DNA from: Polyrhizophydium stewartii
Lineage: Eukaryota > Chytridiomycota > Chytridiomycetes > Rhizophydiales
Direction of reading: 5' to 3'
NCBI GenBank assembly: GCA_027604665.1
Contig: JADGIZ010000002.1
Coordinates: 1 to 64,000, forward strand
Length of the DNA stretch: 64,000 nt
Shown: one piece after another, positions 263-51,228 of the stretch
How positions within the stretch are numbered: the first letter of the stretch is position 1
How the letters are laid out: each line of letters opens with the position of its first letter
The notes under the pieces: model-generated
Seen by the model: only the letters and a program-made list of their open reading frames with translations
Told to the model about the DNA's origin: nothing
Database searches by the model: none
Position numbers and translations under genes: made by a program

Positions 263-342
263 CCAGGGTCTGGGCGGGGCCCATAAGAGTGAGGCGAATG
301 AGCTTGCCGAGTAAGCCGATACGTATAAAAAGCCAGACCCTG
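263..342 (+). repeat. Stem-bounded junction element, copy S1
   Basis: The outer stem is perfect: CCAGGGTCTGG pairs with CCAGACCCTG. The interior has an inner stem (GGC/GCC) flanked by the conserved strands AGTGAG and CGATACGTA. It aligns with copies at 363-450, 1306-1383, 44504-44583 (minus) and 51147-51228 (minus). Between copies both stems change sequence but keep pairing, which is what selection on structure (RNA or hairpin DNA) would leave. Confidence 0.6.
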
Positions 343-362
343 TTTAGATTAGATGGTAATTA

Positions 363-450
363 GAGCACCTGGTCGTAGACGGCCCCCCGAAAGTGAGTCA
401 AGCGAACGAAGGTGAGTGCGACGATACGTAATTAGCCAGACCAGATGCTC
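363..450 (+). repeat. Stem-bounded junction element, copy S2
   Basis: The outer stem GAGCACCTGGTC pairs with GACCAGATGCTC, with one G-T pair. The interior carries CCCCCCGAAAGTGAG and then GAGTGCGACGATACGTA, either side of a short TCA/TGA inner stem. It is the closest relative of the minus-strand copy at 51147-51228. Confidence 0.65.
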
Positions 451-524
451 TCAATTACTCTATATATTGTGCGGATTCGAGATGATTTCTGCTTAAATCT
501 AAATGAACCAACCCATTTGGTACA

Positions 525-564
525 AACCGATCTTAGATCGGGTTGCCCGCCTATGCGGTAAATC
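525..564 (+). repeat. Bistable double hairpin, copy D1
   Basis: The first hairpin is AACCGATC/GATCGGTT. A second follows, CCGC-ctat-GCGG, then AATC. The middle strand GGTT can pair either with AACC upstream or AATC downstream, so the two extended hairpins exclude one another. Related copies are at 15882, 36706, 40668, 50182, 60014, 61808 and 63344. Confidence 0.55.
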
Positions 565-833
565 AAACTCCATTTGACGGAAAATCACCGCTTGAATCTG
601 ATTAGATGGGGTTTTGATAGGGGGGCAAACCCCCCCAAAAAAACTTCCAAAGAATTGTCGCTCCAAAACCGGGAAATCATTGTCAGCTATCCTCAGTTAT
701 TGCCTACATTACATTGCGGTCTCCTAGATCAGCCTCACTTCGCTACGTTGATCTAGCAATAACTTCAGAGAGGAGTTAGCTGACTTTAGAAATACAATTT
801 AAGACAATTTATTGATTCTACATTTATTCGTAA

Positions 834-870
834 GGACGACCCCCGTACGGGGGGAGCTAACGCGCCGTCC
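834..870 (+). repeat. GGACG/CGTCC hairpin element
   Basis: GGACG and CGTCC close an inner palindrome CCCCCGTACGGGGG. Shorter relatives with the same ends (GGACGTCGCTGAGCGCCGTCC minus one base) are at 57676-57696 and 61394-61414. All three are followed by CGAT or CGATT. Confidence 0.5.
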
Positions 871-980
871 GATTTCGATTAATTCTGAATCTTCATCTTA
901 TTTATTCTTAGCTGTCGCGGCGGAGCCGCTCCCATTTAAAATCGCAATAATATCTATTCCAGCAGGTTCTTTAGTTTTGG

Positions 981-1003
981 GTTAGATGGGGAATATAGGG
1001 GAA
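981..1003 (+). promoter_or_regulatory. Dispersed ATTAGATGG motif
   Basis: The copy reads GTTAGATGGGGAATATAGGG. It matches the motif at 168-190 and the minus-strand copy at 42100-42122 especially closely. Function is unknown. Confidence 0.3.
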
Positions 1004-1081
1004 AGCTATGCTTGAAGAATTGGGTGAAAACTCCGCCGCGCACAAATTCGAATTTGAAAAAAGTACGACCAATTACTAAAT

Positions 1082-1164
1082 GGGCCGACACCCCGACACC
1101 TCCTATAGATTCGCCATCTAATGGGCCGACACCCGGCCGTCATCGGTGGTGTCAGGCCGACACC
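1082..1164 (+). repeat. GGCCGACACC repeat array with matching stem
   Basis: GGCCGACACC occurs three times (near 1083, 1123 and 1154). The last two bracket CGGCCGTCATCGGTGGTGTC, so GACACC and GGTGTC can form a hairpin. It resembles the other GC-rich hairpin clusters. Confidence 0.45.
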
Positions 1165-1305
1165 TCACTAAAACATGAGCGGGTACGCGTTCTCTTTTGG
1201 GAAGCCCCGCTCTAAACACCATCTATTAGCAAATGCAGCGAAGATTTAGCTAATGATGCGGAATTAATAAATTCCTGATTTCCCATGATAGATCATCTAA
1301 TCTAG

Positions 1306-1383
1306 CCAGGGTCTGGGCGTCACCCCCGAGAGGGAATCGAACGTCCGGAGAGTGAGATGAACCGTATAAGAAGCCAGACCCTG
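1306..1383 (+). repeat. Stem-bounded junction element, copy S3
   Basis: The outer stem is the same as in S1 (CCAGGGTCTGG/CCAGACCCTG). The inner stem is different (GGA/TCC), and the junction strands have diverged (GAGAG and GAGAGTGAGATGAACCGTATA). It keeps the architecture of the family. Confidence 0.5.
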
Positions 1384-1440
1384 TAGTAGAATCTTGGGCT
1401 AAACTATGCGGTAAATAAAACTCAATACGATATCTAAAAC

Positions 1441-4400
1441 AAATTTTAAGGATTACTGACGTTCTATTACAACCTATATACTTATAAATTAACTCTCTTA
1501 GAATCTAATAGTTATTATTGTGCAGTAATGTTTAGACCTCTATATTGATAAATAGATAGAGTGCACGCAGAAGGTAAAGTATAGTACCTATAGCTAAGTA
1601 AGTAGTAATATAGCTCTGTCTAATATCTATACTAAACTAATTGACGTAGTGACCTATAGGAATCTCTACTATAATTAATGACTCATTTATACAGCCGATA
1701 TCTCCACAATTAATTTCTCTATACAGTAAGATATAGTCAATAATATGAACACGATGGGTTACAATAAATAAGAACTTAAATGTCGAAGTAGAGATTTAAC
1801 GAGGAAAGCGGCCTTTTATATATTCGAATGGACATGGGCACAAATAATAGCCATAATCTACTGTATTAAATAATAACAATTGGTAGGATACTAAATAGAA
1901 AATAAGCTAGTGTAGAACAGAATACCGATATTAATGTATAATATCTAATATAAAAATAAATAATAACAGACTAGAAAATATTAGACAATCGCGCATTAAA
2001 TGACATTAATTAGCAATAGAGATATAATACTAGTTATAATTACCCTGATATAATAAGATAAAGAATATTCTATAGTCGTATACAAATCCCAATGCTAATT
2101 ATGATATGAACAATAGATAATAGCACAACATATAAGAATATATTAACATCTTTATAACTACTAAAGATCCGAAGGCCAGAGTACTTATTCAACCAGTTTC
2201 CTATTGATTTATGTGGGTTTGATTTATGGTTAGACTGGTTCTACTAATTATGAGGCTATTGAATTGACAATAGAAGAAAATCACTAACTTGGTATGAATG
2301 GCATGGACAGAACCTCCAGTCCGAGTTTAGAGGTAGCCATCCTCCCATTTTTATCCAACCGAAGTCCGGATCTAATTCTCATCTTCACTACAAGGTCTTA
2401 AATTCAGGTAACTCTATTTATGCTTATCAATTAACTATAAATACGAGCAAATCTAATAATAAGTACCTACGGGTCCTGGGTTTATTCTTGCCTTTATTAA
2501 TAGCTTATTTATCCCAGAGTTCCTTCCTCTACAATAAAATACAAGAGTACACCTTCACTCAAAGTACATAATTGGCTTTGTTAACTACTTATTCAAGTTT
2601 TAGTGTTAGATGATTATGCGTGTCAATTAAATAGAGAACTTTAACAATAATCCCTCTATTCTAAATAAGTCAGCTTGTTATAAACATAGGGGTAAAATTC
2701 TCAATCTATTCATATGATACTGCCACTTTAAAGTTTTTATTATTACCCAACGGATTCAAATAAGTTGTATTCATCCCAGTTAATCTATTAAAGTTCTTAG
2801 GGTGGTAATGCAGTTCCCACCCCTACAACAAATGGTGAGTATCCAGCAGAGAGCTAGTAGGTAATTAGACTAATCTTTAATTAAGCAAGAGTTCTCTATA
2901 CTTAGCAATTAAACTAGGAGTAATCCATGTCTGATATGAAGAACTTCTGAATCTTAATACTTACCTTAGATGACTTAAATAAAGACGGTGGATTTGTTAC
3001 TGTTTTTTAATAGGCTTAATGTTCGAATAATTATCCCACCAAAAGGGCCGTATTAGTCTCCCACAATGCGCTTAAGTATTGCAGAAGAGGGGGTGGAATA
3101 TATAATGACCTAAATAGAATAAGGTGGCCCGACCTGCGGATGTACGGCTAAATTATTATAAGTAAATTACGAGATTTACATAAAGTAGCCCATTTATGAT
3201 AGGGGTTTATGTGTAGTGTATCCTCTCTACCACAATATTAGATACAGATAGGTCACAATGAAATTAGAATAAAAGAAACTTAACCTTGTGACATATAGCA
3301 AATTGAATATTAGAAATAGCTACCTATAAATAGACACCAAATTACTATCAAACAGGGTCAATGGGTAATTCTAGCTCCCAAATAACCAATTAGTCTAACA
3401 AATTATGAGACAATATAGTAAAGGAGGTCACATATAGTAAAGTACAGAGAATGAAATAGAAGATTTGGGTCAGAATATTCCAAGTCAATGTCGAAGGATG
3501 CTAAATCTCTTAGGTTAAGACACCCGGAGGTCCCTACCAACTCCTCAATATAACGGAATCGGTATTGGAACCTATTTATATAACAAGTCAGATGTAGATA
3601 GGTGCTACGCACTCAAGTTAAATTATTAAGATAGCTAAATTCGAATCTAATTGCCAAACCCCTGGGTATGAAGATATTCACCTTTCCATCTGATACAAGA
3701 ACTTAACAATACATATTATTCTACGAGGTTGTCTCTACCTGTCTATGCATAATAATCCCTATGGCAAGTGAAACGAGTCCAGTCTTGTCAATTACTGTAG
3801 TTTAGTATTCAGAAGACTAGGATCCATTAATATAGGAACTGTAAGTTCTCCTCTTGGACCTCAGGACAAGAGTCCCTCGGAATATTTGTTATCATATTGC
3901 TCTATTATGGCCATAGGCCTAGTCTAGTTGGGAATATAATGTAGTTAGGATTCAGAGTCTAGGTAGTGCCTACCATTGTCATTTAGATGGGTCATCCGTA
4001 GGTAGACCTCTAGTCAAACAGGTTCTAATTATTGTTACTAGTATGGTCGAAGACCTAGACTTGCTGTTCTATTTAATAAGATTAGAAGGTGAGAACAAAA
4101 CCAGAAATTGCCTAAGGCAGGTTGGAAAATGATTCTAATGTAAACCCTTGCCCAGCCACAAAGTCATTTGACAGTATCTGCAATATTTCTAATTAGATAG
4201 TGCTCAAGGGATCCACTCGTTATCAAAAGCCAGAGTTAAACTGCGAGAGCTAAAGAAGATTCACCTCTATAACTCTTTTATTATATTGTCCTTCAACTTA
4301 TGTCATTAACAGAATTTTATATAGATAGTGCCCCTATTAAACGAATATTCATTTGAAATCTAACTATTAATCCACTTATTAAACAACATAACATTAGATT

Positions 4401-7400: not shown

Positions 7401-8170
7401 ATTATATCTTTGTGTAGATTCTAATTACTTAACCTTCATAGTATTGTATCTATCTTATATAGTATATTACTCCTGTTTAACTAAAATAACTATCAATACT
7501 AACTATTCCAATATAGTAACATATACTTTTTACTATAAATAATAAGTAAAGCTGCAAAGATCAAGTGTAACCATTAAATAGAGTGTTATATATAGTGCAA
7601 TGGTTATTATATAAATACTATAGCGCCCGTAAGTTATATGTCACATCCTTTACCTTCTGTCCCTTATAACCTTCAATCCTTATTTAGTATCTTCATAGCT
7701 TGTTCTCTAATATTATTTACCTTCTCTAAATCTCTAGGCCTCTTTACCTTTATGTCCTCCTAGTTAGGATTTATCCTCATTCCTACTTAGTCTAGCTTCC
7801 TTTATAAATAATACCTATCTAGTCCACTTCTATTCTTTATGGCTATTCGATGCTGCGCAATTCTACTTTATTAATTATTACTTACTTTGCTTTCATTTAG
7901 ATTTCGGCCTAAAACTATTATAGGACTATTGCTAGAATTCTTGTATATGATTATGAATAGCTTATATTGTGATGCTGTCGCAATTATATTAATCGATATT
8001 GATTTACCACTATCTTAGTGATTAATATACCATCTAGTAAGGATTATACAGTGACTAAGATTATAGGATAGCAGTCTTAGATATTTTTATTTTAGATCTT
8101 TAAGTGCTTATGTAGTTTATTTGATAACAGACATTAGTCGAATACCTTATATTATATTACCTAAAAGTAC
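1441..8170. other. AT-rich intergenic sequence, rich in TAG/CTA
   Basis: No gene, rRNA or tRNA signature was recognised on either strand. The trinucleotides TAG and CTA are strikingly frequent. GC runs are rare (for example CCCCCC tracts at 5348 and 5400). Open frames at 3403-3612 (-) and 4690-4911 (+) have no recognisable domain. Because TAG appears to be a sense codon here, standard-code frames are unreliable in both directions. Confidence 0.6.
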
Positions 8171-8990: not shown

Positions 8991-11204
8991 AATAGTTAAT
9001 ATAGAGAGTCAATTACTCCTCTACAATAGAATATAATTTAAGTTAAGTCTGACCAGACCCGAGGGATATTTCTGTTTCTCCTGGTTATATAACAATAAGT
9101 GCTCTATATATATAATTTGATAGACGAGAGTAACATCTTAAAGAGATTATTATTAGAGTCCAATATTGATATTACTTAGTCTTCTCTAATAATGAGTCTG
9201 AAGGGCTATCGCTCTTAATATCACTAACTGTTTTATTAGGGTAAATTGATTATCTTTTAATATTATATGCTAGACTTATATAAAATGGGGTAGACTTTAG
9301 TTCTAAATTAATATACTATAGGGATTATTATTTAGATCGTCACCCTTATTACAATTATAGATAGTAGACTTATTCTTAAATATTCCGATCGCCCCGTAGG
9401 GGCTTATTTTAATATATACCTAATTTAGAGACTATTTGCTTAGTAGAAGAGTCTGACCTTCGGATTATCTTTTATTAGATTATATACTACCCCAAAACTA
9501 TTATTTATCTACTATTGAGAATCTCTAACCTTTGTAAGCTAAATTTACTTATATTTAACTACTAGTCTTCTTAGTCCACACTTTAGATTAAGGGTAAATA
9601 GAATAGGGATGTATAACTTATAGTAGTATAGATCCAGTATAGGACTGATTAGACACCAGAGAGAAGTTGCTTTGACGATCAAAATAAACCTTACCAATAA
9701 CTAAGTCCTGACCTTCGGATTGCCTACAAGGTTAGTTAGGATAGATCAATTTAGCTATTGGTGGGACTAAAGCTTACTTCACATTGGCAGCAGCCTAATA
9801 ATACTAGTAAAGATGTCTTCTGCCCCGCAATTTCAGTTTCGAAGGCCTCAATAAGTAGAAAACAAGGGGTGTAAATAGCTATTCGTAGATACGTTCAGAG
9901 AATAAGAAAGTGTTAACTACCGACTACAAACAAACGCTTGCTATAGTAATCGTGGGAGGCTTTAAAGTCCCGAGGGACCGAGGTCCTTTCCTCCTGGATC
10001 ATCGGTACATTGGTTAGCATAAAACTTGTTCTCACAATGGGTACCCCCAATTTCCTATAATCATAATAAAATCGGCTTCTGCCCCAGCAAAGATTAGTTT
10101 GAAGCAACAGTAAAACCCACACAATGTCAATGGCTATTTGTACGATCCCTGTAGATAATTAAAAGTTTACTACTCACTATACAACTCAGCGAAGCTGAGC
10201 TCGTTGCTGGCCATAACCCTTCAAATTCTCTTCCCCTCTTTGTCTCGTGCACCCTCTTGAGTATTGTTACATATTAATAAGTAGAATTGCGAAGCCTCGA
10301 TAAGTATGAATCTTGAGATTATAGTAGGCTATAAAGTACTAAGTATATCTACAATAAATGTAGTATACAGTTATAAAGTAGACTATGTCTTATAGAATAG
10401 TAGTAAGTAATATCTAATAGGTAACTTCTAAAGTACTAACTATTCTAATATAATATATACTGTAAAGAGTTATATAGCTTATAATAATAGTTATATAGAA
10501 TAAACTAATAGAAATGTATCATAATAATGATATGATTTTGACTTGTATAATTAATCTCTACAAGAATCAGTAAGTAATAAATAGCACTGAAGTCTACACT
10601 AGATACGCTAGCAGTCTAAGATGTAAAGTACTAATAATATATAGGAAGGCAGTGATAAACATAGTTTAATAGATAGTATAAGTAAAATACAGTACTAGAA
10701 GAAATCGATAGAAACCAGTCTACACCGCCCAACTGTAGAAAGAGTAGTAAGTCCAAGGGGTCCATCATAAAATAGATCTAAAGAGTATAAGACCTGCAGG
10801 TTGAACATCCACACCAATAGTCTAAATAGTACCTCTACTCTAATAAACCAAGTACTAGTCGATATTCCATTGCCCTCCTTTGTCTTATCATAAAAGTCAT
10901 GACAAGTATAACACCAGTAATAAGTAGAGCATCCTAACTAATTATTAGATTGAGAACTATTGACTAGAGAACCTATACTAACAGCTACAAGAGACTCAGT
11001 AATTGGTATCAACAGGATTGGAATCAATATAACTTTAGTTGCTAATATCCATATTTTATGAATAATCCGAAATATGTGCTGCCATTAACTAATAAAGATA
11101 GAATAGGTAGACTCTAAATAATAAAAGAACCAAGCATATAACTGGGAGTTCTATAAGCCGAGATAAACCCATATATTATTAGACTATAGATATAATTAGT
11201 ACCG

Positions 11205-18620: not shown

Positions 18621-19325
18621 TGCTGTAAAGATAGTGATCTACTCTATACTTTATTCAGGTATATTACCATCAGTCAATTGGTGCGAAGATCGATTGACAA
18701 GAGAGAAAGAGCTCCATCTATAAGCTAAAGTTCCGAAATATAAGATAAGTCATACTAGAGGTCGTTTACTTAGATTGTAAGATCTTCTTTATGTAGGATT
18801 AGTAGGTTCCATCGAAGAAAATGAGTGAGTAATATCTCATGGAAGTCGTCCTGATATTATTATCCGGGACAAAATCAAACGACCGTTAATAATTGGATTA
18901 AGTCTTATTACTTTAGCTATAGCGTGTGAAAAATCACGGGTAGCGGAGTGTGTTGATTTATCATCAACAACAATAATGCTGACATGAGTAACGTAAAGGA
19001 CGGTCTTAATCCGTCCGGCCTATAGTTCAAGGTTTTCAAAAATCTCTAAAGAGGATTGAGTCAATTGGTATCTAACCTCAAAAGAGGGAAGATTATGTAA
19101 ACAGTTATTGCAATAATAATATTCGATATCATTAATTAGCTGATACTGATTCGGGCTACTTATTAATTTTGACCCGTAACAGGAAATAAATTAAATAAAT
19201 ACCATACTGATAACCGACTCTGGTGAACAGGCGTTTATTGCGCTAAGGCTTTCAGAGACCTATCTAGAAGGAACTCGGCAAATTTGAAGTGCGACTGTGA
19301 CTTGGAAAGGATTTCCTCATATAAT
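18621..19325 (+). rRNA. Large-subunit rRNA, domain II (part) to domain IV (start)
   Basis: This segment follows bacterial 23S in order. ATAGTGATCTACTC matches the GGTGATCTA helix of domain II. GAGAGAAAGAGCTCC, then CTAAAGTTCCGAAAT, then GTCGTTTACTTAG match the GAGGGAAACAACCC / CTAAGGTCCC / GTTGGCTTAGAAG series. AATGCTGACATGAGTAACG (18974-18992) is nearly universal. ACCGACTCTGGTGAACAGG and GAAGGAACTCGGCAAA (19213-19283) match the domain III-IV border. About 250 nt of domain II that normally follow the first motif are absent. The segment stops where known intron site L1699 would be, just ahead of an HE frame. Exact ends are approximate. Confidence 0.8.
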
Positions 19326-20238: not shown

Positions 20239-20831
20239 AGCGAAATTGCGACCTGCAAAGCTAATTAAAACAATGTGGTGTAACCCCACTAGATCATTCT
20301 AAGCCTAGATACAAATATGATAAGGGTAACCTTTTCGTATTAAGCTGTATTGACAATGTAAGCTATCTTAATAGTATACTATTAGCTGCTAGGCTAGACC
20401 AATATGGATAACGCAAGTGAATCTACGTTGAGGTGCCGTTAACAGTCCCCCCGTCATTTTTATTGCTTTAATAAAAGCGGTTTCCTAAGGGTTAAGGTTC
20501 AAATGAATATTCTTCCAATAGATAAATTGATCGATTAGAATACCTTCGGCATAGAGTAGGATCCTAAGTTGGTTATTAAAGTGTTTTAATTGGAACAGGG
20601 TAAGCCCAATAATCTCCAGAATGGAGGACCAATCGTGAGGTTGGTTATCGGTTAGTGGGTATAGGATAATACAAAAAGCTAATGGTTTACTGTAATGGTA
20701 GACATAGGATGCCCGATGCATCTACTTCGAAAGAAGGCTGACTTGTATACAGGTGCTAATTTGTTTACTATTAAATTACATATTAAGGATTATATATAAA
20801 AACCGTGTTGAATAAATTTAAATAGCGATTA

Positions 20832-21351
20832 AAGCTAATGTGGTTAGTTGGTCTTACTGATGGAGAAGGTTGCTTTACTGCGACTATTTATCCATATATT
20901 CATTCAAAGTGAGGTGTTCAATCATAATTATCATTTTTTATTACTCAATCTCAATAGGACTAGGATATGTTAGCAATTCTATTTTTTGGTGTTGGATCTG
21001 TGTATAACCGTGTTAGACATGTTTCCGATTTTAAGGTAGTCCGTCGTGGGCTACAGAGTAGCCATATTATTCCTTTTTTTACTAATTATTCATTATTAAA
21101 CGTCAATGAATGAAATGTTTACAACATGGGTTGAGTAGTTTAATGCGGTTGAAATTGATATACATTAGGGTAATACTCTTCAAGCTAGAGATCAATATCT
21201 ATTCTATAAACAGTAGATAATAAAACGTCAATGCCGCATAAGAAGGTTTTAAGAAAATTAGCAAGAAACTCGTAAAATAGAATCCTTAATAATTAAAGAT
21301 ATTTAAGTTTATAAGCCTTACCTTCTTTAGAATAACGTAAATAATTTATTG
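20832..21351 (+). pseudogene. LAGLIDADG homing endonuclease HE-2, decayed
   Basis: K-L-M-W-L-V-G-L-T-D-G-E-G-C-F starts the readable part, which parallels HE-1 along its length (H-S-K-W-G-V-Q, I-T-Q-S-Q, F-F-G-V, D-F-K-V, W-V-E-L-F-N-A-V-E, L-P-S-L-E). TGA at 20910 stands where HE-1 has TGG. TAG at 21136 and 21166 stand at Leu positions, as does TAG at 20955. TAA at 20922 and near 21333 replace Gln codons CAA, which are true nonsense changes by C-to-T. TAG at 20961 falls on a Val position and is probably decay. Several frameshifts are present. It sits in domain IV of the group II intron. Confidence 0.75.
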
Positions 21352-21497
21352 AGAATATAAAATCAAGAGAAGCCTTTAAATATATCAAGGGGTAGGTCCG
21401 CGCTCCACTAAGAGAAATCATATATTAATGGACTTCACAAGGTTAAACCTTAGTTTAGTAGTATCTAAGCGTTATTAAACATGCTAATTTAGTGCTT

Positions 21498-21531
21498 GAG
21501 CCGTGTGCTATGAAAGTAGCATGCACGGTTC
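21498..21531 (+). ncRNA. Group II intron domain V
   Basis: The 34-nt hairpin begins GAGCCGTG and ends CACGGTTC, with the AGC catalytic triad at positions 2-4, a two-base bulge and a GAAA tetraloop. This is the most diagnostic group II feature and it is intact. Domain VI follows: GAGAGGT (21536-21542) pairs with ACCT-A-TTC, leaving A21564 bulged exactly 7 nt before the splice site, as expected for the branch point. Confidence 0.92.
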
Positions 21532-21571
21532 TTAAGAGAGGTCAACGCGAGAGCGCTTAACCTATTCTAAC

Positions 21572-25185: not shown

Positions 25186-25941
25186 ATGAAACGACTAGAT
25201 TTTAATACTCCTTTGAATTCTTATCAAGCTCAAGCTATGGTTGGACATATGTTGGGTGATGCTACAGCTGATCAAGGTAAAGGTAGACATAAAGCTTGCA
25301 TTAAATGGGATTATTCTGTTAAACACGCACCTTATTTCTATTATTTGGTGAATTTATCCGCCAAGAACCTTTATTATACTTTAAAAAGGTAGGTGGACCA
25401 AACTAGGCAATTAGAACTCTTACTTTTGCCTGGGCTACCGAAATTCGTGCTGCTTGGTATAATGCGGACCGGAGGGGACGTGACGTAGGAGCCTTTACAA
25501 GGCTCCGGTCACTCCGCGACCGGCCCCCCTTGGGGGCCTACTAGCGTCCGCGACCGATCTTCGATCTACGTCGCACCTACAAATCGTATAAAAGTTCTTC
25601 CTATAAATATAGCATAAATTTTAACTCCAATAAGTTTAGCTTTTTGGATGATGGTAGTTTTAAGAATAATATTATTAGATTAGCAACAGAAAGTTTTACA
25701 CCGATTGAAGTAGCTTTACTAGCCGATATTATTTTTAATAAATTTGATATTCCTTGTACTGTTATCCCTAAATCAGGTGGTAAACCTAATCAATTCCAAA
25801 TTGAAACTCGTGGTGGTAAAGCTACTATGGCTAAGTTAAATGATTTAGTTGGACCATATGTTATTCCACATTTTGATTAGAAATTAGGTCTTCGTCCTAT
25901 GTCATTATACGAATATCGAGGACCTAGACCTGATAAGTAAT
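25186..25941 (+). pseudogene. LAGLIDADG endonuclease HE-5, split by a GC cluster
   Basis: ATG at 25186 begins M-K-R-L-D-F-N-T-P-L, with the first motif M-V-G-H-M-L-G-D-A-T. A frameshift near 25355 leads into F-I-R-Q-E-P-L-L-Y-F-K-K-V-G-G-P-N-L-A-I-R-T (TAG 25404 as Leu) and A-W-Y-N. There a 114-nt GC-rich cluster (25464-25577) intervenes. After it come K-V-L-P-I-N-I-A, TAA (25615) where relatives have Gln, and I-L-T-P-I-S-L-A-F-W. One more shift precedes the second motif D-D-G-S-F. The frame stays open past TAG 25878 (P-H-F-D-L-K-L-G) to TAA near 25941. This is the family whose second motif reads F-M-D-D-G-S. The insertion and shifts make it inactive. Confidence 0.75.
25464..25577 (+). repeat. 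GC cluster inserted in HE-5, nested
   Basis: The edges match a small hairpin element found alone at about 45763 and 46857 (ATAATGCGGACCGGAGGTCC then TACAAATC). Here that element is split after GGACCGGAGG by a longer cluster that includes GTGACGTAGGAGCCTTTACA and ACTCCGCGACCGG, the same text as at 48981-49024. So this is one mobile GC element inserted in another, inside a coding region. Confidence 0.65.
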
Positions 25942-34890: not shown

Positions 34891-35341
34891 TTTTAATTTG
34901 GGCTCCGCGCTTGAATTTGATGAACTATTCTGACCACCCGCGTTAGCCGGGCCGGAGGCCCTCCGCGCCACCGCGCCGAGGTGGTTGATAAATGGTTAAT
35001 AGAGAAGTCCAACTTCACCAAGAAGGTCTAACAATAGGTTTAAGGTAAATAGGTCATCATTAATTCCGCAATTCAATATGCAAATGGCTTTCGGGATTGT
35101 AGTTATAATAGAGAAGCGGTTGATAGCCAAACAACAATAGAGTGTAGATAAGCTCGCTCCGGTTCAACCAGGGAGCCACCCAAGGGGTGGCCCCAGAAAC
35201 CTCAAAAGAGGAAATTGCAAAGACTACCCTACCTACGGTTGGGCTCTTAACTATTTTGGTATATACAAAAACTCAGTTTTATATGATTTACTCTGTCGAG
35301 GGATTAGACCTATAGATTTTATAAACCAATCGTGTAATAGT
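34891..35341. other. Intergenic GC clusters
   Basis: A GC-rich palindromic cluster at 34937-34986 (CACCCGCGTTAGCCGGGCCG and following) ends in CACCGCGCCGAGGTGG. A GCCACCC/GGGGTGGC hairpin is near 35175. No gene seen. Confidence 0.5.
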
Positions 35342-36219
35342 CTTCTGCTAATTGTTATCTACTACAAATACACCTAATTGACTTAATATAAACTTTAGTT
35401 TAAGTCGCGGCGGTCGCGACGTAGGGCGAAGCCCGGTCGCTCCGAACTAATAAAAAACTATACTGAGCTGCGACGTAGGAGCCTTTACAAGGCACCAGTA
35501 CCAGAGGTACGGGGCCCCCTGTACGGGGGGCCCCCCGGTGCTTAAGCACCGGGCCGATTTGCATGCTTCATCGGCGACGTCACGACCGCTCCGCTGCGAT
35601 TATTATTATATCGCGAAGCTACTCTGATTCATTAAAGAGAATAACTTACAATTGGCCGGAGGGAGAATTCGTGCGACACACTGAATTATCAGCAGATTGG
35701 CGCGACTAGTCGCGCTCATCGCCCCTCCGGGCCGATTTCTAGAAGTTCTAGGAGAGAAAGAGGTCAAATGAGCCCCCCATCTTCTGCTAATTGTTATCTA
35801 CTACAAATACACCTAATTGACTTAATATAAACTTTAGTTTAAGTCGCGGCGGTCGCGACGTAGGGCGAAGCCCGGTCGCTCCGAACTAATAAAAAACTAT
35901 ACTGAGCTGCGACGTAGGAGCCTTTACAAGGCACCAGTACCAGAGGTACGGGGCCCCCTGTACGGGGGGCCCCCCGGTGCTTAAGCACCGGGCCGATTTG
36001 CATGCTTCATCGGCGACGTCACGACCGCTCCGCTGCGATTATTATTATATCGCGAAGCTACTCTGATTCATTAAAGAGAATAACTTACAATTGGCCGGAG
36101 GGAGAATTCGTGCGACACACTGAATTATCAGCAGATTGGCGCGACTAGTCGCGCTCATCGCCCCTCCGGGCCGATTTCTAGAAGTTCTAGGAGAGAAAGA
36201 GGTCAAATGAGCCCCCCAT
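35342..36219 (+). repeat. Exact 439-bp tandem duplication with GC cluster
   Basis: Copy 1 is 35342-35780 and copy 2 is 35781-36219. I see no difference between them, so the event is recent (or an assembly artefact). Each copy holds a GC cluster (from GTCGCGGCGGTCGCGACGTA to CACGACCGCTCCGCTGCGAT) with several nested palindromes, and a second one (GATTGGCGCGACTAGTCGCG) that recurs at about 36793. Confidence 0.85.
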
Positions 36220-37690
36220 CGATCTAATGAAGCGGCTAGCCGAGCGCTCCCTGCGATTAAAAGGTGGCAATTATTGCAAAACCTTAAGCGTAGTCCACCG
36301 TAAGCATATTAGGAATAGTCCATATAATTCTTAGTATATTAAGCAGTCAATAGGACCGCCTCGACCCTCGTGACCCAATACGAGTAGGTTGTAATTTGAG
36401 CAATACCAGTAGTTAGTATTTATCTTCAATTACAGCATTATAATCAGAAATTGAGGTTTGAACTGGAATAGATCAGATATAACAGTCTAGATTGGTATTA
36501 CCTGCTTTAGAGACTTGAACTCTTCATGATTATGCTCCATAAAACTTAGATATCTAGAGGTAATCAACTTGTAATAATTGGGTAATCTACATCCAAATTC
36601 CATTCAAGAGTTAATTTGCAATGGTACTATCTTTAGTCTCTAATCTGATAACTCATAATAATAATCTAGTCATCAACCTGTAATAGTACTAACATGTCTA
36701 AGGTCAACTCGGCCGAAGGGCGAGTTCCCGCGGACGCGGCAACTCTAATATAAAGTCATAATCAAATCTTGTTCTTGTTAACTTTCTAATTAGATTGGCG
36801 CGACTAGTCGCGCTAATCGCCCCTCCGGGCCGATTTGCAGATTTTCTCAATTTGGGGAGCACTCTCCTTTATACACCATCTAATCCCTACAGGGGTGTCA
36901 AATAATGTAATTAGATGTATTATGTTGCGGCCTCCCCCTCGTAACACTCGATTTATAGATGGTCAGACAGGGATGGAGGGACTAGATTAGGTAATTGGTA
37001 TTTATTAGTCAGCTAGCTCCTCTCTGATGATTTACCGAAGGCTCAATCTGAGAAAGGGCCGGCTTATGTGAATCACGCCTAGCTGACGGGTCGAATCAAT
37101 CAGACTAAGACAACTACCAAATCTGGAAATTAGCCTAGATATCCTTTTATTCTGCTCGGAATAGTAGTTCGATTAGAATTGCCTAGTAAGCATGTATAGG
37201 TACGCTAGCTATATATATCGTTTATTGTATGCAGGCTCTATGTTGGATAATTTAATACAATAGGAGGCCAAAGGCCCCTTACAATTTGAGGTTTGCCTTA
37301 ATTATTTATCTTACATTCTTATACTCTTATATATTAGCTATTATGGGTACTACCGTTAATCTAATCTTGTAAATTCAATGTCGCCTACTTCATGCTACGA
37401 GGTTTAATTAACTATTTATCCTTAGCATAGCTGTCGTCTAGCTGGGCTCCGTAATAATATTCTTATGTTATTTATTACTTTTATCGTTTACTTATTAGTT
37501 GCTTATATAGTATGTAGTAATTGTTACAAAATATTTTAATAGATAGACAGCTAATAGTGTTTGCAATATGAGACGCACGTGTACATGTGTCATATCGTAT
37601 ATTAAAAAGCGTAGCTACATCATAGGGGACACGTGCGTGATTTCCTATAATAATATATATAATAGACCTCTATTAATTAGGATAAATAGT
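36220..37690. other. Intergenic sequence
   Basis: No gene seen. It contains a double hairpin (36706-36745), a GCGCGACTAGTCGCGC palindrome followed by CCCCTCCGGGCCGATTT (36796-36833, also in the 439-bp repeat) and an ATTAGATGG motif on the minus strand (36863-36884). ATTGCAATATGAGACGC- and TGTGTCATATCG-type inverted text lies near 37560-37595. Confidence 0.5.
36706..36745 (+). repeat. Bistable double hairpin, copy D2
   Basis: AACTC (36706-36710), GAGTT (36722-36726) and AACTC (36741-36745) are the three strands. The second hairpin core is CCGC-GGAC-GCGG. The middle strand pairs perfectly with either outer strand. Confidence 0.65.
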
Positions 37691-37786
37691 AAATGTGTGA
37701 GGTAAATGAGATATGATCGTGGGACAAGCCTGATTACAGAGGGGCTAAACCAGATAGACAATTATATTGATGGTCTTTCAACTAAT

Positions 37787-38050: not shown

Positions 38051-38136
38051 GGAGCCGCGACTAGCCTCAGAAGAGCTTCTGAGGCGACGTCACGACCGTG
38101 GCCGATCTTCGATCTACGCCACGCACGCACCGTCCG
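38051..38136 (+). repeat. GC cluster with GCCTCAGAAG/CTTCTGAGGC stem
   Basis: GCCTCAGAAG-AG-CTTCTGAGGC is followed by GACGTCACGACCGTGGCC and CTACGCCACGC. The stem is identical at 50898 but reads GCCTCATAAG-AG-CTTATGAGGC at 49258, a paired change. Confidence 0.65.
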
Positions 38137-42122: not shown

Positions 42123-42677
42123 CTGAAAATTGAGTAAATAAAACAACCTATTGCGATTCTTGTTAGGGTTTCAGCTCTGCAGCGGCTAGCCCCCTATCAT
42201 TAAGCCATCTAATAAAGACCTAGGTGGTGCCTCGAATAGTAGGAGCAACGGAGCTCCCAAATGGGTTTGATGCTATGATCCGATACAATGTCGGTCAATA
42301 GTAAATAGAATAGCTCTAGTTCTGAATCCATAGACCTAAGCAAGCCCAACCCTGCTCGGATATTTAAGTTATAAAAAAAATATGGATTACTATAATTTAT
42401 CGCCCCTTACTCCTAGTCTTGCCATCAATATATTATCCCGATATCTAATAAGAACGCCGACCTGGGTAGGGTTAAGCCAGGTAATATTATCTTAGTTATT
42501 TTATTTGACATATAAACTTATTATTAACCCCTGCTTCCGAATTCTTCGTTATCCTTTACCCCCCTTATATATTCTTTATTAAAGAGACTAACTATGCTAA
42601 ATCGATAATTAACAATCGGTCTTTTTATTAGCTTGATAAGAACAAATGCTTGTATAAATAGGAATTAATTTATCGAC

Positions 42678-42710
42678 CTGGTACCGCTACGGGTGATCAT
42701 GGAGCAAATT
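42678..42710 (+). repeat. Deleted remnant of the TGATCACCG-bounded element
   Basis: GGTACCGCTA is joined directly to CGGGTGATCATGGAG. The full element at 51852-51942 has about 40 nt between these parts, so this looks like an internal-deletion derivative. Confidence 0.45.
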
Positions 42711-44503: not shown

Positions 44504-44583
44504 ATCAGCCGGTGTCTTGGTACGTATCGTCGCACTCGTCAAGCTCGTTTGACTCACTTTTGGGGGGAGACACCCCGGCTGAT
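44504..44583 (-). repeat. Stem-bounded junction element, copy S4
   Basis: On the minus strand the outer stem is ATCAGCCGGGGTGTCT with AGACACCGGCTGAT. Inside are CCCCCCAAAAGTGAG, an inner stem GTCAA/TTGAC, and GAGTGCGACGATACGTA. Both stems differ in sequence from S2 and S5, yet the junction strands are the same. Confidence 0.65.
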
Positions 44584-44606
44584 TTCCGCGCCGCTAATCG
44601 ATCTTC

Positions 44607-44630
44607 ATTTAGATGGTGTATAGAGGGTAA
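44607..44630 (+). promoter_or_regulatory. Dispersed ATTAGATGG motif
   Basis: ATTTAGATGGTGTATAGAGG lies 24 nt after element S4. Confidence 0.3.
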
Positions 44631-44830
44631 GCCAGAGAGAGCTACACCGTAGCGGGAGTTATGATGAAAGCTGATCAGAATTATTTGATCTAATAATTAG
44701 AACTTGTGGGTTTTTCAATAGATACCATGGTCAGGGGGGTAACCCCCCAGACCCAGCCACCTCACTTTTGCTCATTTGATCGATTTTGTTCAAATCTCAG
44801 ACTTTTGGGAGCGACGTCGCTACCGCGTAG

Positions 44831-47073
44831 CTCCGGCCACTCCTAGCTCCAGCCTCGAGTGTAATGCTTAGAAATTATTAATTGAATCGAGTTTATATTA
44901 CTGTAAATCTAGGTCTTAATCACTTCAACGTGATTGCTGTATTAGCGATCAATAAAAGGTGCTTCACCACAGCCGGCGACCTGAATGGACTCATTTGATC
45001 AATCAACTTAGTTGATTCGCACTATATCAGACCCCCTAATGGGCGATGTAAGAAAAGAGTCTAGATTTGCCGCTCTGCGGGAATAGTAGTAAAAAAAGGT
45101 TGTATCTGGATTTAAAGTTATTCTGTTTATCCAACCTAAGTGTTACCAAATAAATAATAAAAATGTATGATGAAAAAGGATGAGAAACAGAAATACCATT
45201 AGCAATGCCACTACATTCATCAGGAGTCAATGAGATTATTCATTTACATCTGTCCTATTTAGATCACTTAAGTGATTAAAGAAACTGTTATAATAGTTTG
45301 TAGTAAGCTAACCTACCCCAATAGAATATACTAGTATCTTCGACTCATCTAGATGAGTCAATAATTTAATACGACTCTTTATTCAAGCAGAAAAGATGCT
45401 TTAAAACTTGTTTCATTTTAATAGTCGATCATTAGATCGAGGGTATAAGGATCAAGAGCAAGGATCAGGCATTCGTATAATTACCGAACTAGTTTATATT
45501 AGATGAGATCTCAAATTATTAGTAAGCATATGATAGCAGATTTCTAATTGTCTAGTTATGACAGGTACCCTTTTATATAACTACATTGTCATATGATTAC
45601 TATTTCCGATAAAAATTATTCAGTTCTCAGATGATTTGCTAGATAAACTAGTAGAACGAGGCTGATATAGGAGATCGCAACGGAGTGAAGACAAATCAAC
45701 TTAATAATCAAGAATGAGTCTGAGTGGGGTTTGAATGTAATAGTGAATGATATTTTTAATATAATGCGGACCGGAGGTCCTACAAATCAAATAAACGGTA
45801 TATAAGGAATAAATAGCTGATAATGGTGCGTACACCTCAAAATAAGCATGAAAATAAATTAAATGAAACGAGACGCTAGGTGTGGCGTAGGTGCTAGTAG
45901 GCGAAGGCCGGTCGCTCCGCTACGCTCCGGCCACTCCTAGCTCCAGCCTCGAGTGTAATGCTTAGAAATTATTAATTGAATCGAGTTTATATTACTGTAA
46001 ATCTAGGTCTTAATCACTTCAACGTGATTGCTGTATTAGCGATCAATAAAAGGTGCTTCACCACAGCCGGCGACCTGAATGGACTCATTTGATCAATCAA
46101 CTTAGTTGATTCGCACTATATCAGACCCCCTAATGGGCGATGTAAGAAAAGAGTCTAGATTTGCCGCTCTGCGGGAATAGTAGTAAAAAAAGGTTGTATC
46201 TGGATTTAAAGTTATTCTGTTTATCCAACCTAAGTGTTACCAAATAAATAATAAAAATGTATGATGAAAAAGGATGAGAAACAGAAATACCATTAGCAAT
46301 GCCACTACATTCATCAGGAGTCAATGAGATTATTCATTTACATCTGTCCTATTTAGATCACTTAAGTGATTAAAGAAACTGTTATAATAGTTTGTAGTAA
46401 GCTAACCTACCCCAATAGAATATACTAGTATCTTCGACTCATCTAGATGAGTCAATAATTTAATACGACTCTTTATTCAAGCAGAAAAGATGCTTTAAAA
46501 CTTGTTTCATTTTAATAGTCGATCATTAGATCGAGGGTATAAGGATCAAGAGCAAGGATCAGGCATTCGTATAATTACCGAACTAGTTTATATTAGATGA
46601 GATCTCAAATTATTAGTAAGCATATGATAGCAGATTTCTAATTGTCTAGTTATGACAGGTACCCTTTTATATACCTACATTGTCATATGATTACTATTTC
46701 CGATAAAAATTATTCAGTTCTCAGATGATTTGCTAGATAAACGAGTAGAACGAGGCTGATATAGGAGATCGCAACGGAGTGAAGACAAATCAACTTAATA
46801 ATCAAGAATGAGTCTGAGTGGGGTTTGAATGTAATAGTGAATGATATTTTTAATATAATGCGGACCGGAGGTCCTACAAATCAAATAAACGGTATATAAG
46901 GAATAAATAGCTGATAATGGTGCGTACACCTCAAAATAAGCATGAAAATAAATTAAATGAAACGAGACGCTAGGTGTGGCGTAGGTGCTAGTAGGCGAAG
47001 GCCGGTCGCTCCGCTACGCTCCGGCCACTCCTAGCTCCAGCCTCGAGTGTAATGCTTAGAAATTATTAATTGA
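44831..47073 (+). repeat. 1094-bp tandem duplication, two copies plus 55 bp
   Basis: Copy 1 is 44831-45924 and copy 2 is 45925-47018; the first 55 bases of a third copy follow (47019-47073). I noticed only two substitutions (near 45582 and 45652 in copy 1). The 64-codon minus-strand frames at 45036-45230 and 46130-46324 are identical because of the duplication and show no family signature. Each junction carries the module AGGTGTGGCGTAGG...GGCGAAGGCCGGTCGCTCCG. Confidence 0.85.
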
Positions 47074-48830
47074 TCTGAAGTAGTCTCAACCTCCTATAAA
47101 AATACTATATATAACACAAAATACAAAACTATAGCAAGTAGACTTAAGTTTGATGCTATCTTTCTAGACCTACTCGTAATTCTCAGCAAGAAATAAAACT
47201 GAAATTATTGATCAGCAACTACGTTACGCCTTTGTATAAGATTTCATAGTTATCTATAAAGTGTAAGCAGCCCAGAATTGATGGGCGACAATAGCTGTTA
47301 ACCTGCATCAAAACTGTATACCAATCCAAACTTCTGAACTAATGCTAAAGGTCAGAAAACTACCAATACTCTTGAAACAATTAGATCAGATACGAATTAA
47401 TCAGATGAGTTACACTTCATTTTATTAAATTAGAAGGACAACCATTTTGATCACTACTCCTCCATAGGGTTACCAAGGTACCATTTTCAATTTGACCACA
47501 CCAATTTCTGTTTCACTCCGACCAATACGCGTGAACCTCCACCTAGATGGTTTAAGAATCTTAAGTAACCAAACACTGCCTACCAATTTAAGGCCAGCCG
47601 ATTTTGTAATGCGCCGCTTTATTTTGATCTCCTATCGAGGGGGGTGAAACACCCCCCGAATTATCAGACTATTGAAATAGTCCGCTTGGCCGCTCCCAAA
47701 TAATCAGACTATTGTTGCTTCTGTTACTAATCAGGACCTAATTATTATTTCTAATACTGCATCTATAGGTATCAGGTATCGGCTCATTTATCGATCTTCA
47801 GATAATCCTATAACCTTTGACAGAATATCACAAATTCGGATAAACCTCCGCGGCAATTCTAGTTCTAATCTACTTCATTGATTGTAAAGAGTTGCCCAAG
47901 CTCTTATAACAATTCACTACGTCATTCCCTAACGTTTGAACATATTGATTTTGACCAGTACTTCAGATTTTATTCCCCCATATTCTCATGGTCTATGGGG
48001 GGCTAAGATAGTTTTTTTATTGGTTTCATGAGGGGATGTGGAAAACCGCCTGTTGTTTCTAATAGGAAGTCACCCTGATCCTTGAGCTTAGATGGCAAAT
48101 ATAGGGAAAATCTGCAAATACGCGGAAAGTAAAAGAAATAACAATTAGGAGCGACGTAGACCGGAGCGGAGCTGCTCAGAAATTTGCAAATAAATCAAGA
48201 ACTAAAAATGGGAAATAGATCTAACCTTTTGTATTATTCTAGGGGAAGAAAACGACTTCTTATAAGCTAGGGAAGATAAAACCTCTACCAAATTATATTG
48301 AATTGCCCTTAAAGATACATACTATTTAGACCCCAGATTAATAAATAGTCTAAGTAGGAGATAATAAATAATCTATTTAGAATCAATATTTTAGGGCTCC
48401 TTCCTTAGATATATAAGCCTAATAGTCTCCGTAAGTAATCTACATTATCTATGTTCTTTTTTATCTAGTGTATTCAAAGGATATTAGCTTTTTAGGAGAT
48501 CAACCCTCATATAATTAGTTAGGGAAACCAAGATAAGATTAGTATTATAAACAGACTTAATTTAGATAAAATGGATCTCTCTTTTGATTAATTGAGAAGG
48601 GAAACCTAAAGTTATATATGAACTATAAGCCAAGACGGACACATTATTTATATAGGGAATTTGATGAGATGTGATACTCTAAGATAGAAGGTTCCCAAAG
48701 GGTGAGTCATTACAATAGGTATAAGATGTATAATAATTTCCCAAGGATTTGGTATCTAAATTAGATCTATATATGAAAATATCAATAATAAATGATCTGA
48801 GATAGAAAACCCTCATATAAATCTGAAAAT
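47074..48830. other. Intergenic sequence
   Basis: No gene seen. It includes a GGGGGGTG-AAA-CACCCCCC hairpin (47640-47658), a partial double hairpin (CCGCGGCAATTCTAG near 47848) and an ATTAGATGG motif at 48086-48110. Confidence 0.5.
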
Positions 48831-49049
48831 CGCGACGTCGCCTATGTCATGTTTCATCGGGCCCTAACCGGCCCGCCCCACCCGGGACCCGGAGCGGCTC
48901 CGCCGCGGCAAGGGGTCCCGGGGTCTTTAAGACCTCGAGGGGCGGCGGCCCCCCCATCTTCGATGGGGGGCCGGTCGCGGACGTGACGTAGGAGCCTTTA
49001 CAAGGCTCCGGTCACTCCGCGACCGGGCTTCGCCCTACGTCGCTCCGGG
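48831..49049 (+). repeat. Largest GC cluster, about 219 bp
   Basis: It is composed of successive palindromes: GGGCCCTAACCGGCCCG, GGACCCGGAGCGGCTCCG, GGGGTC-TTTAA-GACC, CCCCCCATC-TTC-GATGGGGGG, and the module GACGTGACGTAGGAGCCTTT shared with 25477. The end CCGGGCTTCGCCCTACGTCG resembles 35430. Confidence 0.7.
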
Positions 49050-50846
49050 ATATTATAAAAACAACTGGAAGATCTCCCTATAAATTCTCAATATTTAAGC
49101 TTAAGTAAATCTAATTTGGTTAGCCAATCTAGAACCTTGCAAATAATTATTAACTATTTTTTTAGGTGCATAATCTCTCTACGGTTTATCCTTTACCTAG
49201 GATTAGATGAGAACATACCCAATTCTCGAAGGGGCCACCGGATCTGAAGGATCCGGGCCTCATAAGAGCTTATGAGGCGACGTCGCGACCGCCCCGATCT
49301 TTTATATGTCGTTTTATAAGAATACACCCAAAACATTATAAATAATACACCTTAAATCAAGGGAAGAGATATTAGATAGGTCATCGACTTCGTCGATTAA
49401 TAATACTAAAATAACCCTTCTTATTGGTTTTACTATCCATTATAAAGGGAAGATTATCTAGTTATATACTATCCTTCTTTTGTCTTATAAAATTATTGAG
49501 AGGGACAACTATCAAGTTATCATTAATTCCGTTTCTAATCTCCAAATAAAAGAGGTGTACACAAATTATAGGTAAATATTCTATTTTATCTACGGATCCT
49601 ACCTAGTAAAATGATCTATTCTCTAAATGTTTTAAGATGTCAATCCATCTAATTTTTATATAATCTAAAGTATAAATTAAATATATAAATATCCACCTTA
49701 CTAATTAAATATATAGGTAACCCTCTTTGGTCTATATTATGGCTCCATGAGAATTATTAAGATCTACCAAAATATCATGTTTTTCTCTACCTAAGATTCT
49801 TATTATGAGATAATAAACACAAATTCCCTTCCAATTATTAGAGAAGGTTCTTTATTTATGTAGATACTCCTTGGCTTTTCTAATCTATAAACCTTGGTCT
49901 TCTTTATTAACTCCTTATAATAGTTTCTTCTTACGACAGCTTCTAAGGCTAGAATTTCTTAATAATCAGAGGATCCTATAGTTATTATAAAAAGCTAGCT
50001 AGAATTGCCGCTAGCGGGCCTCCGGACGAATTAGGTTAGTAAAACTTATTACAACCCTAATTATTAGTAAAAGCAATATCTGCTACATTGATCTAATTAT
50101 TATAGAAGGGGTGCAAGAGATTGAATGCTTATTGATCTAAGTATAATTTGACAGATAGCGATAAAAGAATGTTTGGGTATAAATCGGCCGAAGGGCGATT
50201 TCGCTCCAAGAGGAGCTTCAATCTATTATAAGTAAAAATACAATGTTTATTATATTTGTAGGGGAATAAGATATAGATTAATTTGATTACCTCTGATTAA
50301 TTATAGATCCGTATTAAATTATAAGTACCCTTTCTCTTGTAGCTTCTACAATCATTTCTTTAGATAGACTACAATTTCAATAGCTATTTATTAGGTTAAG
50401 TAATAGAAGGAAAGATACTATCTTTTGAGAATGGTCGGTATAACCAGCTAATTAATTAGCTTAATCTTTAGTAGTAGAAATTTTAATAATAATTAAGCGG
50501 CGTCGCTAGGCGCGAGCTGACGCGACGCGATCTCTTCATATAGTTGAATCTAGGATATATTAAAATATTTATCTATAGTTCTATGTGCGTTTATTCATAA
50601 TTAGCCTTAACTTGCTTAATGCTATAATCTGGGATATTCTCAAATGTACTAGAAAACCCTTGGTTATTTATAGGGTTGTACTAAGTGAGCCAATAATTGG
50701 TTTAATCATTTATTATTATATGTAACACTACCATCTGCATCAATTTGACCAGACAACCTACCATGATTCTAATGCAAAGGTCGAGGGGGAATATAGTCAA
50801 TATTGTATTTATCCAACAATCTTTTTAATTGAATAATCCTGTCAAG
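49050..50846. other. AT-rich intergenic sequence with GC clusters
   Basis: No gene was recognised. It includes the GC cluster at 49227-49298 (GGATC-TGAAG-GATCC, then GCCTCATAAGAGCTTATGAG), a minus-strand partial double hairpin (50009-50033), a full one (50182-50223) and a GC patch GCGGCGTCGCTAGGCGCG (50499). Confidence 0.5.
50182..50223 (+). repeat. Bistable double hairpin, copy D8
   Basis: AATCGGCC/GGGCGATT, then GCTCC-aaga-GGAGC, then AATC. The second stem differs completely from other copies, but its position and the shared GATT strand are kept. Confidence 0.55.
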
Positions 50847-50930
50847 CTGGAGCGACCGGGGCGCCTCAGGCGCCCCCCCGCCCCTCAAGGGGCGGGCCTC
50901 AGAAGAGCTTCTGAGGCGACGTCGCTAGCG
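50847..50930 (+). repeat. GC cluster
   Basis: GGCGCC-TCA-GGCGCC, CCGCCCCTCAAGGGGCGG and GCCTCAGAAGAGCTTCTGAG followed by GCGACGTCGCTAGCGA. The last stem equals that at 38065. Confidence 0.65.
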
Positions 50931-51146
50931 ATGGGGTTTCTAATTTCTACATTTTTCAGTCCAACTTTATTGTTTAGTCTATAACGCTTATTCTATTTGG
51001 TTTAGATCCGGCAGCAGCCCTAAATCTTCATTAGGGCGCTTCCACGCGCCCGCCCCTTTAAGGGGCTTATTCTGTTTATTTGAGTAGCTACATTTCTTAG
51101 TAGAATTTCTCGACTATACCAATCTTACGGAAATGAGGTATAACAA
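50931..51146. other. Intergenic spacer
   Basis: It contains short GC hairpins (CCCTAAATCTTCATTAGGG, CGCGCCCGCCCCTTTAAGGG). No gene seen. Confidence 0.5.
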
Positions 51147-51228
51147 CACCTGGGTCTAGCTTCAGTACGTATCGTCGCACTCACCTAGTTCGCTTGACTC
51201 ACTTTTGGGGGGACGTCTAGACCAGGTG
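51147..51228 (-). repeat. Stem-bounded junction element, copy S5
   Basis: The outer stem CACCTGGTCTAG pairs with CTAGACCCAGGTG (one bulge). On the minus strand CCCCCCAAAAGTGAG, a TCA/TGA inner stem and GAGTGCGACGATACGTA follow. Confidence 0.65.

Follow-up and report, generated by a model that had tools for sequence, protein, structure and literature searches.

A dispersed hairpin element with covarying, exchangeable stems in probable chytrid mitochondrial DNA

What is propagated when short repeats keep their unpaired strands nearly constant while their stems change from copy to copy? The question is raised by five segments in a window of 64,000 bases from the chytrid Polyrhizophydium stewartii (assembly GCA_027604665.1, 690 contigs with 12.86 Mb in all; the window covers bases 1-64000 of JADGIZ010000002.1, a contig of 79,094 bp here called C2). 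The segments are copies of an element of ~80 bases in which an outer stem (P1) encloses an internal loop of fixed strands and an inner hairpin (P2). Its pairs covary, its copies are dispersed with similarity that mostly ends at P1, and outer and inner hairpins are exchanged between copies. By habitat and dispersal the element is a mobile mitochondrial hairpin, while by its evolution it resembles a structured RNA. The explanation preferred here, which we consider rather probable, is a mobile hairpin of fungal mitochondrial DNA that must fold as a single strand in order to spread.

The five window copies reported by the earlier note turned out to be an undercount. Three sequence patterns found 30, 35 and 29 places in the whole assembly, and the same patterns reversed found 0, 0 and 1. 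A core covariance model (R1), built from 21 sequences with P1 left out, gave 59 matches at E <= 0.001 in 44 sources (194,656 bases). Together with five more matches that the model added, the pattern places come to 75 on 27 contigs, 36 on the plus and 39 on the minus strand, a count drawn from non-exhaustive searches. It excludes a 76th, C425:10598, a pattern match dropped as false with no P2 pairing and no other copy on its contig, which is still present in the counts over 57 cores below. The end of C4, the start of C18 and C524 have 76-77 bases in common at contig ends, and these may be one assembly repeat rather than three copies. The core of the model matches has a GC content of 0.45-0.64, against 0.343 in the window. 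The family is real, ordered and, as far as the searches reach, undescribed: its fold was not found in the literature searched, a search that left most subscription papers outside and in which sequence could not be queried. The earlier note had proposed looking for further copies, for covariation and for a match to a known element; within this assembly the first two were found and the third was not.

The fold starts with the closing stem P1 and an internal loop whose strands are fixed (CCC..ARA, with GTA opposite). Next come a two-pair helix of the form G-N/N'-C and a tandem G.A/A.G in which one base bulges, and last the P2 hairpin, which is free in sequence. The pairs, in the numbering of alignment A2, are 16-50, 17-49, 20-45, 21-44, 22-43, 25-40 and 26-39. 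These are established by covariation, whereas the G.A pairs and the bulge as such are inferred: G18 and A19 would form the tandem with G46 and A47, and base 48 would bulge out. Among 57 distinct cores, pair 17-49 is T-A in 46, C-G in eight and G-C in three, and without the false C425 row (one C-G) all 56 are paired. With C425 included, P2a is G-C in 36, A-T in 17 and G-T in two, with two others; P2b is T-A in 25, C-G in 17 and G-C in 14, with one other; and P2c is C-G in 45, G-C in seven, A-T in three and T-G in one, with one other. Once C425 is removed, P2a, P2b and P2c are standard in 55, 56 and 56 of 56 cores, each with at least three pair types. None of 20,000 permutations, run with C425 kept, reached any of the four Watson-Crick counts (17-49, P2a, P2b, P2c). 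The patterns had left positions 17 and 49 free, and two of the three had left all P2 positions free. Several flanking positions (A15, G16, A19, G46, A47, C50, G51 and T52) were required by the patterns, and their constancy is therefore partly built in; the model search required none of them, and its matches include G-T at 16-50.

A model-fitted alignment of 56 distinct rows gave a similar result, in that 96.5% of its cells pair, against 80.9% when shuffled (none of 500 shuffles reached the observed level) and no more than 52.6% with slid partners, and 74 cells changed on both sides against 20.0 when shuffled. In a mutual-information scan (50 distinct rows by 35 columns, an effective number of ~20, corrected for column background, with apical loop and P1 omitted), P2b, 17-49, P2a and P2c rank 1, 3, 4 and 5 among 595 column pairs, and rank 2 is a neighbouring dinucleotide of the 5' strand. 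Kinship among the copies inflates all of these covariation tests; even so, three pair types at the isolated pair 17-49, amid unchanging non-pairs, would be hard to get from descent alone. Over the seven pairs, G.T or T.G cells number 17 and A.C cells one, an excess that favours the element strand as the folded one.

The outer stem, which lies outside the model, pairs as well. In 54 copies, the mean self-pairing energy of P1 is -23.1 kcal/mol, against -15.9 (standard deviation, sd, 0.59) for permuted partners, and the flanks of 37 copies give -21.8 against -14.8 kcal/mol (sd 0.67); in neither test did any of 10,000 permutations do as well. Loci L008 and L010, cut by contig ends, and pattern copies without fetched loci are not part of the test on 54 copies. 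Compensatory versions of the stem occur as CAGGGTC/GACCCTG against CTGGGTC/GACCCAG, as CACCTGGTC/GACCAGGTG against CACCAGGTC/GACCTGGTG, and as GGGTCTGG/CCAGACCC against GGGTCAGG/CCTGACCC. Some copies retain a T.T mismatch in P1 (e.g. L005:1501 and L050).

P1 sequences fall into eleven named families, with two copies that fit none, and the inner parts are combined with them almost at will. The CAGCCGG family has 10 copies with 10 different inner hairpins, and the CCTCATCGG family has 11 copies with 10 inner sequences. Conversely, seven inner sequences each occur under at least two P1 families, although one of these cases depends on L015:+1813, whose P1 is broken. Identical inner hairpins are thus found inside different P1 stems, and it follows that stems move as cassettes. 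The apical part can likewise be swapped whole, for example as GGGTC-GGTATAGCAA-GACCC, GCATC-GGTATAGCAA-GATGC and GCCTC-GGTATAGCAA-GAGGC, and in L090 a bare GAAT-GTA-ATTC hairpin on ATC/GAT takes its place. The exchange points are the fixed unpaired strands. Locus L016:+1445 (C524:1437) and L064 (C1:56894) have at least 31 bases of left flank in common but neither the inner hairpin nor the right flank, the outcome to be expected of a crossover within the element. Arms that fail to pair are seen in few copies, an argument that propagation depends to some extent on pairing.

Within the window, all five copies lie where the earlier note had placed them and score 53-72 bits with the core model; these scores are not independent, as the five are among the 21 sequences from which it was built. 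Copy 1 (263..342, plus strand, 72.1 bits) has P1 arms CAGGGTCTGG (264..273) and CCAGACCCTG (333..342), which pair with each other, and its P2 strands are GGC (293..295) and GCC (315..317). In copy 2 (363..450, plus, 61.8 bits), GAGCACCTGGTC (363..374) pairs with GACCAGATGCTC (439..450) around GTC (397..399) and GAC (420..422). Copy 3 (1306..1383, plus, 53.2 bits) repeats the arms CAGGGTCTGG (1307..1316) and CCAGACCCTG (1374..1383), encloses ATC (1336..1338) and GAT (1356..1358), and has G-C rather than T-A at pair 17-49 (1333 with 1362). The remaining two are on the minus strand: copy 4 (44504..44583, 64.1 bits) has left arm ATCAGCCGGGGTGTC (44569..44583), right arm GACACCGGCTGAT (44504..44516), and P2 strands GTC (44551..44553) and GAC (44529..44531), and copy 5 (51147..51228, 68.5 bits) has left arm CACCTGGTCTAG (51217..51228), right arm CTAGACCCAGGTG (51147..51159), and P2 strands GTC (51196..51198) and GAC (51174..51176). 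P1 pairs in all five, as the earlier note had said. Its further statement that the outer stems are unrelated in four of five copies has to be replaced by three sequences, CAGGGTCTGG (copies 1 and 3), CACCTGGTC (copies 2 and 5) and CAGCCGGGGTGTC (copy 4). Its inner stems do covary, in another register than proposed: GGA/TCC and TCA/TGA are not the covarying helix, which is P2 as given above.

P2 stands directly 3' of G(T/G)GA and directly 5' of GA..CGTA, that is, with GTGA (GGGA in copy 3) before its left strand and GATACGTA (GAACCGTA in copy 3) after its right strand; past P2 come two further pairs and a small variable loop. The near-constancy of the strands between the stems was also borne out, since GAGTGCGACGATACGTA has four matches in the window at three mismatches or fewer, against 0.04 expected, and CCCCCCAAAAGTGAGTC has three against 0.08. 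Thermodynamic folding alone is weak evidence for the proposed structure. Folded as RNA, the five copies have z-scores of -2.2 to -3.2, and only in copy 2 does the minimum-energy fold contain P1 together with the proposed inner helices; two opposite strands folded as RNA gave -1.6 and -2.4, and DNA folding was weaker (-0.4 to -2.5).

The DNA that carries the element is probably fungal (chytrid) mitochondrial DNA, as read from the sequence of the fetched loci rather than of every one of the 27 element contigs. It looks mitochondrial because of the window's GC content of 34%, pieces of large-subunit (LSU) rRNA at 18642-19312 (two matches to the bacterial model, of which one exceeds its gathering score and the other does not), a group II intron found by the Rfam scan at 20289-21571, and LAGLIDADG reading frames, two of three tested being over the Pfam cut-off and the third just under. 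COX1 exons lie on contigs C29, C98, C4 and C61, with an in-frame TAG in six of nine COX1 matches; the reading of TAG as leucine is a trait of chytrid mitochondria. A nuclear actin frame of the assembly has Synchytrium microbalum (96%) and Entophlyctis helioformis (95%) among the 120 of 7983 matches listed, but actin is strongly conserved, with many animals at 94%, and the host is on this evidence no more than a probable chytrid. Fetched loci with the element have 26-47% GC, and four without it (L059, L060, L061 and L063) have 62-67%. No tRNA or tmRNA was found in the window. Two COX1 first exons, at C29:38597 and C4:46134, encode proteins that are 67% identical; either the assembly holds two mitochondrial genomes or one of the exons belongs to a paralogue. 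The lengths known for 21 of the element contigs sum to ~853 kb (added by hand), which, if from one organism, would make an unusually large fungal mitochondrial genome.

Matches between copies mostly end at the ends of P1. Only eight of 1431 pairs among 54 copies are similar directly outside it; six of these come from an extra hairpin that one subfamily has in common, a seventh from a neighbouring repeat (L042 and L050), and the eighth is the L016/L064 pair described above. The subfamily has five copies, on C39, C29, C17, C18 and C32, each with one extra hairpin in the right arm. Fragments with the left or right part alone also exist. The full element at C42:13888 and a left arm alone (CCTGGGTCTGGGC) at C29:3933 have one flank in common. 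Being dispersed, the element is probably mobile. No copy lies inside the rRNA and COX1 matches that were located. A flank motif, TTAGATGG..TATAGGGG, was considered as an insertion target and set aside, as its distance and orientation to the element vary.

Among candidate enzymes, a Y1 transposase (PF01797) had no match in the assembly, which may be incomplete, and single-strand DNA transposition of the IS200/IS605 or REP type was set aside for lack of such a gene. Contig C31 encodes a partial frame of a group II intron-type reverse transcriptase, with RVT_1 and GIIM domains over their cut-offs, and also holds two copies of the element. Spread by way of a folded single strand, probably RNA, is most likely, although RNA and single-stranded DNA were weighed without a verdict. 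The folded strand would most likely be an RNA from read-through transcription. An enzyme, for which the reverse transcriptase of C31 is a candidate only, may recognise and bind it by the junction and the fixed loop, and the bound strand would be copied into new sites. Template switching within the unpaired fixed strands would then swap whole stems, and chimeras left with unpaired arms would cease to spread.

Several observations weigh against this account. P1 is weak or mismatched in four of 54 copies (L015:+1813, L034, L090 with arms from two families, and L056), P2 carries one mismatch each in C3:12068 and C42:13888, and in two weaker matches of the model, L091:2783 and L068:750, the inner part is rearranged or tiny. 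Of the five covariation measures, two are not above shuffles: 83 of 500 shuffles had at least as many pairs changed on both sides, and 207 of 500 at least as many further pair types. The G.T excess is mostly in P2b, where it may reflect shared descent, and by eye P1 has no such excess. Because of P1, the element strand and its opposite both have folds below those of shuffles. The C42/C29 pair of sites fits deletion as well as insertion, and no insertion event was observed. There is no sign of target-site duplication in 51 of the 54 copies (those with P1 at -15 kcal/mol or better), the mean shared length being 2.94 against 2.88 (sd 0.16) when permuted, and the insertion mechanism is therefore unconstrained. 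Finally, the C31 frame is partial and falls under the NCBIfam cut-off for the whole protein (128 against 300 bits).

One alternative is a plain palindromic GC cluster, acting as DNA only, whose fold has no function and whose arms are kept alike by repair or by template switching in extruded hairpins. This alternative is unlikely but credible: other plain GC palindromes abound in the same DNA, P1 mismatches show no preference for G.U by eye, and yeast mitochondrial palindromes are reported, in the available part of the source, to merge and shuffle (PMC4478555). What it accommodates poorly is the junction. Correction between arms should turn the G.A/G.A positions and base 48 into pairs, yet these are kept next to an isolated pair whose two bases both change. 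The fixed parts of the element are, moreover, its unpaired strands, the reverse of sponge hairpins as far as the accessible text describes them (PMC2800124). The argument from fixed columns is weakened in that the patterns required some of them, although the model search did not.

A constant junction could also be the mark of catalysis. In this improbable alternative, the element processes its own transcript as a small ribozyme of a new kind, self-cleaving or self-ligating, and cassette exchange is RNA ligation at the fixed strands. Some 15-20 nearly fixed bases, mostly outside the stems, surround freely varying stems in a compact unit, and RNA-mediated ligation has been proposed for GC-cluster shuffling in yeast, according to the portion of the report at hand (PMC4478555). 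No family known to Rfam 15, ribozymes, riboswitches and introns included, was matched by copies 1-2 (E <= 10), the window copies (E <= 5) or 20 loci (E <= 1). The earlier note's remark that no known ribozyme could be recognised thus holds for the copies tested, and of its suggestion of a conserved RNA, a ribozyme-like fold or a mobile DNA, the conserved covarying fold and the dispersal (hence probable mobility) stand, while the word ribozyme is so far not supported, given the lack of an Rfam match. The 22 highest-ranking column pairs listed include no conspicuous further pair between the strands, in a scan that left the apical loops and the far 3' strand outside. The hammerhead ribozyme has a core of CUGANGA, with its CUGA turn, and three stems; it was set aside, as the inspected copies have no CUGANGA before P2 and form a two-way junction. 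The element does recall hammerhead domain 2, with G-A, a stem and G-A-N forming tandem G.A pairs next to a free stem, but it differs in having no CUGA turn, no third stem and a base 48 that is not fixed as A. Bolder, and doubtful to a slightly greater degree, is the idea of an RNA activity in the fixed junction: a small ribozyme of a new kind would cut and rejoin at the constant strands, and the element would multiply by reverse transcription and swap stems by ligation at the RNA level; if true, the element would be a modular catalytic parasite of mitochondria.

That the element is a host signal, such as a hairpin by which mitochondrial RNAs are processed at the 3' end or stabilised, is very unlikely, if weakly tested with genes not mapped systematically: copies do lie 3' of the small-subunit rRNA match on C116 (~330 nt, same strand), of an LSU rRNA match on C1 (384 nt, same strand, the match being under the Rfam gathering score) and of a COX1 exon on C98 (~840 nt), but the distances are irregular, on C29 the copy near the start of COX1 has the opposite orientation to the gene, and the family is nearly balanced between strands (36 to 39), though contig strands are arbitrary.

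Searches outside this assembly covered prokaryote, viral and plasmid sequences. In prokaryote contigs, GAGTGCGACGATACGTA had two 17-base matches (Bradyrhizobium and a metagenome-assembled genome of Actinomycetota), whose surroundings lack the core; two patterns had no match in viral contigs; and plasmid records gave partial matches alone (E 2-8, in four records).

Other repeats and structures share the same DNA. A second, larger structured family occurs in the window at ~51777-51998 (plus), on C4 at ~35890-36100 (minus), on C39 at ~10020-10280 (minus) and on C1 at 59281-59425 (plus). Its four-copy alignment shows, by eye, apparently compensatory stems (ATGATCACCG/CGGTGATCAT against GCTTCCA/TGGAAGC, GTTTT/AAAAC against GCCAAAAG/CTTTTGGC, and GTTA/TAAC against GGCA/TGCC), and its window copy has no Rfam match. 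The motif TTAGATGGnnTTTATAGGGG is found at many places in the window, for instance 169, 349, 602, 982 and 44609, and often near elements. In 150.7 kb of pieces, TAGATGG was counted 111 times, where first-order resampling of the sequence gives ~25; the motif is perhaps a promoter or another repeat. Arrays of GC palindromes (such as GCCTCAGAAGAGCTTCTGAGGC and GGAGCCTTTACAAGGCTCC), repeated across contigs, occupy 38064-38122, 48943-49301, 50849-50934 and 25476-25577 of the window. Two further dispersed hairpin families, AGATTGGCGCGACTAGTCGCGCTCATC and GTGGAGGTGAACGC..GCACGTCCACCTC, lie at 35694, 36133 and 36791, and at 37784 and 60712, respectively. The window also contains recent tandem duplications, of 44816-45979 with 45911-47073 (99.5% identical) and of 35341-35781 with 35780-36220 (100%).

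The usual description of mobile mitochondrial hairpins is of palindromes with no known function, and their mode of spread is unsettled. In the present element, constant unpaired junction strands combined with free stems follow the pattern of a functional RNA, and structural diversity arises in an unusual way, as copies exchange nested stems whole. Its ~75 natural variants form a ready data set for relating structure to function, and movement as RNA or as DNA is directly testable.

Comparison with known mitochondrial hairpins places the element among them and sets it apart. The GC clusters of Saccharomyces mitochondrial DNA (GC42) are palindromic and mobile, merge and shuffle, occur as fragments, and are flanked by AG or ACT repeats resembling a target duplication, as related in the sections available (PMC4478555). 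The element is likewise of the mobile palindrome type, shuffled and found as fragments, but has no target duplication, and it has a covarying junction fold such as the same sections do not describe for GC42 clusters (PMC4478555). The repetitive hairpin-forming elements (RHE) of sponge mitochondrial DNA differ from structured RNAs in that the stem is the conserved part and the loop the variable one, according to the accessible text (PMC2800124). Both are dispersed mitochondrial hairpins of no known function; the element shows the opposite behaviour, its stems varying with compensation and its loop strands being conserved. A double-hairpin element (DHE), by comparison, consists of two neighbouring stem-loops. 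Such elements are mostly intergenic and polymorphic in presence between related genomes. DHEs are described, in the part of the source available, as short, GC-rich hairpin elements dispersed in fungal mitochondrial DNA, at first that of chytrids, with examples in Allomyces and fission yeast (PMC10085805), and those of Allomyces are said to lack flanking duplications (as cited in the accessible part of PMC2800124). Like DHEs, the element is short, GC-rich and dispersed in fungal mitochondrial DNA, at 75 places; unlike them, it has nested stems, with P1 enclosing P2, a conserved two-strand junction, compensatory changes in its stems, and exchange of its hairpins as cassettes.

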